DNA of 64,000 bases from Metallosphaera hakonensis JCM 8857 = DSM 7519 (GTDB lineage: Archaea; Thermoproteota; Thermoprotei_A; Sulfolobales; Sulfolobaceae): contig NZ_CP029287.2 of the NCBI RefSeq assembly GCF_003201675.2, positions 1,910,001-1,974,000 of the forward strand. Reading direction: 5' to 3'. A program made the translations under genes and the position numbers. Of the stretch, positions 37,489-54,707 are shown one piece after another (position 1 is the first letter of the stretch; every line of letters begins with the position of its first letter). Below the pieces are notes generated by a model. That model saw only the letters and a list, made by a program, of their open reading frames with translations, had not been told where the DNA came from and made no database searches.

Positions 37489-38082
37489 TTAAATTTCTAA
37501 TTCCTCTTCTTCTTCAACTGGTTTAATGCAGTCCAACTCCTCTAGCTTATCGAATATTCTCTTCACTGCCTTATAGACTTCATCCTCCCTCTTCGCCCCA
37601 GTGATTACCATCTTTCCGCTACTAAATATCAATAGGACCACCCTGGGGTCATCCATCCTAAAAATCAGTCCTGGGAACTGTTCTGGTTCATACATATTGT
37701 TTTCTAGTAGAAAGGCGGCCTTGTCAAGGTTTACATGAACGTGCATATTAGCTGAGGCAACAATGTTCTGTATCTGTATCTTTGGTTTTCCGCCTATTTT
37801 TATGCCATATCTTCTTAGACTCTTTATTATCCTCTTTACAGCCCTGATTAGTTCCTCAGTGCTCTTGGCACCAGTGACCACCATCTTACCTGATTTAAAT
37901 ATAAGAGATGTAACCTTAGGACTTTCAAGTCTAAAAATAAGCCCTGGGAACTGATCGGGATCGTACTCCACATTGGGAACACTCCTCTCCATTGCATACA
38001 GATCTAGTGTTTGCTCCAAAGTTACGGTCGCTACAATGTTTTCTATGCTTATTATCGGCTTATAAGCCGGCGAACTGGAAAT
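37489..38082 (-). CDS. tbp: TATA-box-binding protein, probable ATT start
   Basis: Saddle-shaped general transcription factor with two repeats (first about 12-100, second about 102-185): [35 protein letters not shown] and its copy [35 protein letters not shown], then an acidic tail EEEEELEI. The first ATG/GTG/TTG in frame is a TTG at 38019, which would delete conserved [11 protein letters not shown]. Upstream the frame stays open to a TGA at 38089-38091 without any ATG, GTG or TTG. An ATT at 38080-38082 gives 197 residues, the family length, and lies about 30 bases behind a TATAAAAA box. Confidence 0.88.
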
Positions 38083-38488
38083 ACAGAGTCACCAATATAT
38101 AGTTTTTATACTGCTTTATAAACTCCAGCTTTTTAGGCTTACGTAAATTATTACGGTCAGTGTTTAAGAGTTACGGCCTTTTTAACTTCGCCTTAATTGA
38201 TAACTTTAGCTTCACGATCTAAGAGCTTCTAAACCTCTTACCTGGGGTTTAACACTATAAACCCTGACGCCGATCTATAGATCATCCACAAAATTTCACA
38301 ATTGAATAACAATATACAGAAATTTTATTTGATTTGTATTATTTAATTCTCTTTCTCTTATAAAAATCATAATAAAGTCTTGATCCTATCCTTAAGGTTT
38401 ACGTGGTATCTATCATCGAGAATTTACCTTAATGTTAGGATAAATGAGGAGACTGCTAAACCGCTTTCTTGAAGAAATGAATATTACC
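38083..38488. promoter_or_regulatory. TBP promoter and AT-rich intergenic region
   Basis: On the minus strand TATAAAAACT at about 38100-38110 is the likely tbp TATA box. The remaining bases to 38488 are AT-rich with no gene. A 16-base motif ATCCACAAAATTTCAC at 38284-38299 has a close match near 54899-54916, and TTACCTTAATGTT at 38424-38436 recurs at 54747-54759, in the other intergenic region that holds the 97-base element. Confidence 0.5.
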
Positions 38489-38585
38489 TTATACTTCCTG
38501 AGACCTTAAAGGGCAACATAACCTTCTCTGGTACATTGAGTGGCTTTGGATGCTTCATTGTGCTTTAGACTATGACTAAGTATAA
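38489..38585 (+). repeat. 97-bp element with 8-bp inverted ends, copy 1
   Basis: Starts TTATACTT and ends AAGTATAA, exact inverted repeats of each other. It matches 54611-54707 (other strand) over all 97 bases with no gap and 15 differences, 12 of them transitions. No target-site duplication is obvious. The right end, AAGTATAA, is also the likely TATA box for TFE-beta (ATG 38625). It may be a MITE-like element, a small RNA gene or a regulatory module. Confidence 0.8.
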
Positions 38586-38624
38586 AATATGATTAAACGT
38601 ATATATCGACGTTTCTAAGATCGA

Positions 38625-39065
38625 ATGAACAGTAGTAAAGTAAATAAGCAGGAAATCACATATTATAGAATTAGCCAACGCAGGTGTAACGGATTGGAAT
38701 CAAAAGTTTCAATAGAAAAAGAGGATCTCATTCATAAGAAAATTCTAGAAAGTGGTGAGGACGGGATATCTCAACAGGAACTTGCCAAGAAACTTGGCCT
38801 CTCTACAAGGGAGTTAGCTACGGTGATAAAGAAGCTCATCGATAAAAAGATGATATCAAAGAAGGCAGTTAGGGAAAACGGTAAGAGCGTCATAAAACTA
38901 TTTGCAATAAGGACTGTTCAGGAATCCGATATCTATATTAACTTAGAAAGTATTGAGAAAATTCCTTGCTTCTCCTGTAAATTGCTCTCTAAGTGTGGGA
39001 ATGGGATTCACGTTAACCCCAGTTCCTGCACTAAACTGTCTTCATGGATTTTATCCATTAGTTAA
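38625..39065 (+). CDS. Transcription factor TFE-beta (RPC39/hRPC39-like)
   Basis: Subunit of the archaeal TFIIE-like factor that helps open promoters. Residues about 30-95 form a winged helix (EDGISQQELAKKLGLSTRELATVIKKLIDKKMI); the C-terminus IPCFSCKLLSKCGNGIHVNPSSCTKLSSWI has the four cysteines (C-x2-C-x5-C-x10-C) of the [4Fe-4S] domain. The start is uncertain: the first ~25 residues are poorly conserved-looking and a TTG at about 38694 is an alternative. The stop overlaps that of trm1 on the other strand by 4 bases. Confidence 0.88.
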   Translation: MNSSKVNKQEITYYRISQRRCNGLESKVSIEKEDLIHKKILESGEDGISQQELAKKLGLSTRELATVIKKLIDKKMISKKAVRENGKSVIKLFAIRTVQESDIYINLESIEKIPCFSCKLLSKCGNGIHVNPSSCTKLSSWILSIS

Positions 39066-51011: not shown

Positions 51012-51577
51012 GAGAATCTATATTGCTTCTACTCCTAATTTAATAAACAATATTATAGTAGGGTTTGGTATTACCCTAACTGCTTAACCTGTGTATGTTA
51101 CTGCTTGATGGCTCCTGAATAATATCGCAATTCCTTGGGGCCTCGCGTCTCATAGTGGAGTCCCAGAGTCCTTGAATATAGATTCTAGGTTCCTTATGAG
51201 TTAGGATTTTTGCCGTCTTCTTTCAATATCACGTTTTTTGACCGTAAATTTTAACGTGTTGAGATTGGTTACAAACTCGTTTTTGGCAATCATGATATTG
51301 GACGTAAAAATGACGGATGAAATGACTCGTCATGAATACGACAATTACGAAGCTTCCATGTATAGATGTGTAAGAAACGCCACTTTCAGACAAAATGCAC
51401 AACCGTACCCGGTAGCCCCCAATTACATTCTAGACAAGAGAAAGGGGATGTCGTGTTTACAAGCTAGAATACGAGAACGGTAAGGCGAGGGGAACTACGT
51501 CGGTCCCTTAATTGACGTAGAGAAAACTTATATCAAATTGAAAAATAGCAGTGAGGGATGTGGGGATCTCCCCACAG
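51012..51577. other. Intergenic stretch between nrdJ and tRNA-Arg
   Basis: 566 bases. The left end holds the nrdJ promoter. An 81-codon frame (51238-51483, TTG start) has no familiar motif, and its codon use and composition do not look coding. GAACTACGTC (51490-51499) and GACGTAG (51514-51520) can pair. I see no C/D boxes, no tnpB-like end and no second gene. Confidence 0.35.
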
Positions 51578-53775: not shown

Positions 53776-54139
53776 TATTTGCCCCTACTACAAGTCAGGT
53801 TTTTGCACCTCTCCCATGCTCGATACTCCCACGGATAGTGTAACTAGCCCAGGGAGATGTTTCAAGTCCTATAAAGGTTGCAGGTACTATCAGGATACTG
53901 GGGAGGAAGAAAAACAGGGGTTAGAGATTTATCAACCCAGCGTAGAACAGGAGGTAAAGTTCTATCCCAGAGTAAACGTTATGGAAAATCCGGTTGATAG
54001 CTCATGCGAGCATTACAAACCCATGAGAACCCAAAGGGGTTACGTAGCTTACTGCGATATTTTATCCAGGATATTGACGGTGTCCGGGGCACAAATGTGT
54101 AGCAAACATTGGCAGAAGTGTCCTATTAGAACAAGTTAA
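53762..54139 (+). CDS. Cysteine-rich protein with two four-Cys clusters
   Basis: 125 residues. Eleven cysteines or so in two groups: CPYYKSGFC ... GRCFKSYKGCRYY (about 7-43) and SSCEHYKPM ... YCDIL ... MCSKHWQKCP (about 82-121). Each group could hold one [4Fe-4S] cluster or zinc. It starts at TTG 53762 with GTGAGGG just upstream. The first group resembles CPYYDKKTSKC of the protein at 58677-58979. Function unknown; redox or nucleic-acid contact are possibilities. Confidence 0.65.
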   Translation: MQKRDICPYYKSGFCTSPMLDTPTDSVTSPGRCFKSYKGCRYYQDTGEEEKQGLEIYQPSVEQEVKFYPRVNVMENPVDSSCEHYKPMRTQRGYVAYCDILSRILTVSGAQMCSKHWQKCPIRTS

Positions 54140-54447
54140 TCTGTTCCCAACTTAGCGTATTTTCCGTCATCAAGTAAGGTAACTTGTTTACTCTCGGAAA
54201 GGCTGGCTAACGCCCGCCTTATTTTATCTTCACTGGCTATTCCTGAGAGCTTACTATGAAGCTCCTTCAGGTTCATGGGTTTTTCAGTTAATAGATCCAA
54301 CAATATTTGTTTAAGCTCCTCTTCGTTGGGGGCAGTCATGACTACGACGTCCTTATCGGAATAGACCACCTTCAATTTACTTTCCACCTCACCCTCACTT
54401 TCTTTCGTCCTCCTAGATTTTTTACTTCTGCTACTCAACGCAATCAC
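54136..54447 (-). CDS. Small winged-helix protein
   Basis: 103 residues from GTG 54447. A basic, Ser-rich N-terminus (SSRSKKSRRTKESEGEVESK) precedes EEELKQILLDLLTEKPMNLKELHSKLSGIASEDKIRRALASLSESKQVTLLDDGKY, a winged helix. A minus-strand TATA (ATATTTAAAAG near 54472-54482) fits leaderless translation. Copy 2 of the 97-bp element lies about 130 bases further upstream. Could be a regulator or RNA-polymerase-associated factor. Confidence 0.7.
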   Translation of the reverse strand: MIALSSRSKKSRRTKESEGEVESKLKVVYSDKDVVVMTAPNEEELKQILLDLLTEKPMNLKELHSKLSGIASEDKIRRALASLSESKQVTLLDDGKYAKLGTD

Positions 54448-54610
54448 TAGTATACTACTCAGTTAATCTGCTTTTAAATATTATGAATATGCTTCTTACT
54501 TATCCCCTAAAGATAAATAGGTTTTATTTATTACTATCTTTATTAAAGAAACTATTTTATGAATGTTTTAAATGAGTCAATTCGGTTTCAATTGGTTATG
54601 TAAGATCTCG
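54448..54610. promoter_or_regulatory. Promoter region of the small winged-helix gene
   Basis: AT-rich. The minus strand carries a TATA box at about 54472-54482 for the gene ending at 54136. No other feature seen. Confidence 0.4.
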
Positions 54611-54707
54611 TTATACTTTGTCATAGTCTGAACCGCAATGTAACATCCGAAGTCGCTTGATATATCAGAGAAGGTTACGTTGCCCTTTAAAGTCTCAGGA
54701 AGTATAA
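54611..54707 (-). repeat. 97-bp element with 8-bp inverted ends, copy 2
   Basis: On the minus strand it begins TTATACTT and ends AAGTATAA and aligns without gaps to 38489-38585 (82 of 97 bases identical). The first 42 bases differ at only two sites; the middle is more variable. As with copy 1 it points toward a downstream winged-helix gene (54136-54447). No target duplication seen. Confidence 0.8.

Follow-up and report, generated by a model that had tools for sequence, protein, structure and literature searches.

A 97-base repeat in the Metallosphaera hakonensis genome is very probably a family of IS630-type MITEs

The window analysed here, a stretch of 64,000 nucleotides of the M. hakonensis genome, contains two copies of a 97-base repeat, the first located between the divergent tbp and TFE-beta genes and the second upstream of a small conserved gene. 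The two copies match without gaps at 82 of 97 bases (38489-38585 on the plus strand against 54611-54707 on the minus strand; 85% identity), and each carries perfect 8-bp inverted ends (TTATACTT/AAGTATAA), both as reported in a preliminary description of this DNA. The 54611-54707 copy is returned at E=7.6e-25 in a genome search, and the window pair lies far above chance. The features of the two loci are as follows, with repeat boundaries taken from the alignment of the family described below.

38489..38585, plus strand: putative MITE copy 1, in the tbp/TFE-beta intergenic region, with its boundary set from 41 copies
38489 and 38585: flanking T and flanking A of copy 1, with putative TA duplications at 38490-38491 and 38583-38584 and the element proper at 38492-38582 (91 bp)
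38492..38525, minus strand: left end of copy 1, where the family consensus on the complementary strand reads ...EKVTLPFKV and matches the IS630 transposase C-terminus
38659..38673, plus strand: TATA-like core promoter of TFE-beta, CATATTATAGAATTA, kept in six of six genomes of the genus and outside the repeat
38694..39065, plus strand: TFE-beta gene, with a probable TTG start at 38694
54136..54447, minus strand: small gene downstream of copy 2, conserved at 87-93% identity in five congeneric genomes without the repeat
54471..54490, minus strand: TATA-like sequence of this gene, ATATTCATAATATTTAAAAG, conserved and more than 100 bp from copy 2
54611..54707, minus strand: putative MITE copy 2, with putative TA duplications at 54705-54706 and 54612-54613 and the element proper at 54614-54704

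The TTG at 38694 is most likely the start of TFE-beta, because in relatives among the five sister genomes compared, stops interrupt the upstream extension to an ATG at 38625. The end of copy 1 had been proposed to double as the TATA box of TFE-beta; that end lies at 38581-38590, however, and the likely TATA, CATATTATA, sits at 38659-38667, just upstream of the TTG and within a strongly conserved block (AGTAAAGTAAATAAG...CATATTATA) shared by all six genomes. The end of the repeat is about 74 bases upstream of this TATA-like block, and on this evidence is not the TATA box of TFE-beta. Just outside the right edge of the repeat, two sister genomes without it, G003 and G004, retain AATATGATTAAAC or a sequence close to it, as expected for an insertion. 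The order of tbp and TFE-beta (window 37489-39065) is divergent here and in G003 and G004, tandem with tbp first in G005, and with TFE-beta first in G001, which suggests repeated local rearrangement around these basal transcription factor genes. At the second locus, the conserved TATA-like sequence of the downstream gene (ATATTTAAAAG) is also found in the sisters that lack the repeat. No Pfam match was obtained in this gene, and the term winged-helix is the preliminary description's own reading of it.

The repeat belongs to a dispersed family, with about 40 copies in addition to the window pair. Searching the 2,544,115-base, single-contig M. hakonensis genome identifies 41 near-full copies on both strands, with 79-95% identity, and a sequence-only profile built from these copies and run on the same genome recovers all 41 together with roughly ten degraded or partial ones, bringing the total to about 50. 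The near-full copies show the characters by which MITEs are recognised: they are short, multicopy, dispersed and without an open reading frame of their own, and their terminal inverted repeats, perfect over 8 bp in the window pair, extend imperfectly over about 35 bp. Length, initially described as constant, is exactly 97 bases in 30 of the 41 copies and 95-99 in the other 11. The limits first drawn around the repeat also needed correction, although the repeat itself is real; conservation among the 41 aligned copies spans TATACTT to AAGTATA, with mutually unrelated flanks beyond, and the outermost T (33 of 41 copies) and A (24 of 41) vary and are therefore target bases outside the repeat. TA is present on either side in most copies.

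Variation within the family bears on its history. Mean divergence is 10.2% from the consensus and 17.4% between copies, and the excess of transitions first noted in the window pair extends to all 41 copies (292 transitions, 108 transversions). The strongly conserved left part seen in that pair largely disappears across the family, in which mean column identity is 0.917 at positions 1-42 and 0.883 at positions 43-97. Five copies carry 29T, 64C and 66A together, and four copies, window copy 1 among them, carry 17C with 43G; these linked variants define subfamilies. Nearest-neighbour distance is 9.0 differences against 11.2 in site shuffles, smaller than in all 500 shuffles, and this closeness together with the linkage is the pattern expected of successive bursts from several source copies. 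One further family copy, at G000:C1:422117-422793, appears split into two parts about 570 bases apart, which suggests a later insertion into that copy.

By a simple gene call based on open reading frames, one copy (locus L002) clearly interrupts a gene, which encodes an AAA_14 ATPase, and nearly all others are intergenic. Excision that leaves a single TA restores the ATPase frame (GNPKYLLLDEIQNV; ...YTIYGNPKYLLLDEIQNVNGWEPF...), and the match of the rejoined product to AAA_14 (113.8 bits) spans the junction. The other excision models, in which no TA is left, TATA is left or all 97 bases are removed, each give stops in the ATPase gene. As the frame is restored only with TA left, the element is 91 bp in length and lies between duplicated TA dinucleotides, which are a signature of IS630/Tc1-type transposition. 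The duplication is demonstrated at this one site; at both window loci the left flank is not alignable to the sister genomes, where the intergenic DNA is too diverged for an empty site to be read.

The preliminary description had offered a relic MITE, a small RNA family and a shared regulatory module as options and leaned towards function. Under the small RNA reading, each copy would encode a non-coding RNA whose hairpin is under selection, a proposal consistent with the constant length and with the long, imperfect hairpin into which the consensus folds (about -21 kcal/mol). A transposon's inverted ends yield such a hairpin anyway, however, and copy 1 folds no better than shuffled sequence (z -0.10 and 0.28 on the two strands), while copy 2 folds weakly on one strand (z -2.12; -0.73 on the other). 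The covariance analysis that had been called for gave no signal beyond shuffles: over 41 copies, hairpin positions pair in 91.8% of cases against 92.1% in column shuffles, and double-change pairs number 4 against 4.6, with no compensatory excess. Rfam reports no family at either window site, and a small RNA family is considered very improbable.

A shared operator or promoter module upstream of winged-helix or transcription genes would fit the position of the two window copies, upstream of TFE-beta and of the small conserved gene, and the AT-rich end of copy 1. The element is, however, missing at both genes in five sister genomes, genus-conserved sequence including the TATA-like boxes falls outside it at both loci, and one copy disrupts a gene. 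Neither orientation nor upstream position is biased over the 41 copies: relative to genes within 300 bp, 15 copies are in the same and 13 in the opposite orientation on 5′ sides, with 15 and 12 on 3′ sides, and the genes flanking copies are divergent in 9 cases, convergent in 8-9 and tandem in the rest. The proposed winged-helix link concerns two of 41 insertions, and the reading of both downstream genes as winged-helix genes is a coincidence. A regulatory module is highly unlikely, and of the three options the relic MITE is the one that stands; dispersed copies, the lack of bias and the lack of covariation leave the lean towards function unsupported.

In an intermediate reading, the repeats are MITEs and a single copy, or a small number of them, was later co-opted, with copy 1 for example altering TFE-beta or tbp expression. 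Copy 1 lies between these two genes, directly upstream of the AATATGATTAAAC sequence that two sister genomes retain, and by model score it ranks with the copies nearest the consensus. Its nearest relatives occupy unrelated sites, so this likeness reflects its subfamily, and the TFE-beta core promoter is kept in sisters without the element; no positive evidence for co-option was found. Co-option of this kind is improbable, as is the reading that such a copy now tunes the expression of a basal transcription factor.

The ends of the MITE point to its parentage. A DDE_3 transposase relic at G000:C1:1848490-1849650 has two ends that both match the MITE left end (86% over 36 bases and 86% over 28 bases), and a second relic, from C1:25558 to about 26605, has the same ends as the MITE and eight in-frame stops; taking both relics together, one side is 86% identical to the MITE ends over 36 bases and the other 82-86% identical over 28 bases. 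Pfam domains above cut-off in the relic transposase are HTH_Tnp_IS630, HTH_33 and DDE_3, which place it in the IS630 group. The relative G019 carries several insertion sequence copies with the same ends, three of them intact, with 1082 bases between outer TATA ends and a transposase frame of 337 aa from its ATG that terminates in ...LPFKV. Transposase C-termini read EVFLPFKV, EIALPFKV and EVTLPFKV (the last in G029), and the left end of the MITE consensus reads EKVTLPFKV on the complementary strand, indicating that the MITE has retained the final codons of a transposase gene. No intact cognate transposase was found in this genome, nor an exact autonomous parent with the CCTGAGAC end, the left end of the relics being CGTCAGAC.

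A separate IS630-type group is present at G000:C1:1278154, 220023, 1834734, 158626 and 1105826, with members of about 1050 bp that are approximately 98-99% identical and a transposase that lies in two frames of 184 and 191 aa; this group was likely active recently. It was considered as a partner (1278154, 220023 and others) and rejected, since its end match to the MITE is not beyond chance.

The transposase gene of the relic at 1848490-1849650 is split by a different MITE of 72 bp. This inserted element belongs to a second family, MITE-like and about 72 bp in length, which occurs in the window (51349-51420, minus strand), at G000:C1:1848788-1848859, where it interrupts this IS630 relic with ends matching the 97-base MITE, and in at least 38 more places. 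Its ends are GGGGCTACC...GGTAGCC, and it is flanked by direct repeats of about 7-10 bp (GTAATTG in the window). Several of the at least 40 matches are 97-100% identical, which makes this family younger than the 97-base one.

Taken together, the 97-base repeat is almost certainly a MITE, in which a 91-bp core, derived from an IS630-type insertion sequence but not itself autonomous, is accompanied by the TA duplication and one flanking base per side. The MITE retains the two ends recognised by the transposase, including the final codons of its gene, and little besides. A cognate IS630 transposase is predicted to have cut the element out and pasted it at TA sites, with T-TA-A preferred, and judging from sequence such mobilisation would have occurred in trans; spread may have proceeded in a single burst or in several, with more than one source copy. 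Since both autonomous relics here are disrupted, the first by insertion of a different MITE and the second by eight stops, the family has probably lost its mobility and is now decaying. The visible repeat is thereby accounted for and a false regulatory story prevented, and an old-looking IS630 MITE family is added to a species of unusually low published coding density (80.3% in M. hakonensis, compared with 88-89% in M. sedula and M. cuprina; PMC7325606). It is plausible that MITE and insertion sequence spread contributes to this low density.

In a comparison that the preliminary description had proposed, none of the five further genomes of the genus contained the 97-base repeat. Among more distant Sulfolobaceae, a single close copy, about 87% identical to the consensus, occurs in G014, and other genomes carry MITE-like elements of about 106 bp (G027 and G019) and about 92-100 bp (the g4 genomes G008, G024 and G017), whose ends are as in the 97-base MITE (TTATACT..CTGAGACTTTAAAGGGCAA / TTATACTTGCTTATAGTCTAAAGGGCAA) but whose interiors and lengths differ; these represent separate lineages of the same kind.

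The family also resembles the MITEs of Sulfolobus, namely SM1-SM4 (Redder 2001, as cited in PMC10969869) and SM3A and SMN1 (PMC3718332), which, as described in the excerpts of these sources used here, are likewise short, without open reading frames, bounded by inverted ends, present in tens of copies and found in the same archaeal order. Those excerpts give 25-44 copies for each family in S. solfataricus, with an insertion sequence transposase providing mobilisation in trans, and do not mention a 97-bp family; SM3A (164 bp, ISC1058) and SMN1 (320 bp, ISC1733) differ from the 97-base family in length and partner. The latter is a putative new family of an established type. With the IS630 elements of Sulfolobaceae, the MITE shares its ends, the TA duplication and the transposase C-terminus at its left end; those elements carry a transposase, whereas the MITE carries none, and its middle ~30 bases are unrelated to, and match neither of, the insertion sequences examined. 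ISC1078 is an IS630 element of 1078 bp with a TA target, and the IS630 elements that share the MITE ends are possibly ISC1078; the intact element of G019, at 1082 bp between outer TATA ends, measures 1078 bp when the two TA are subtracted.
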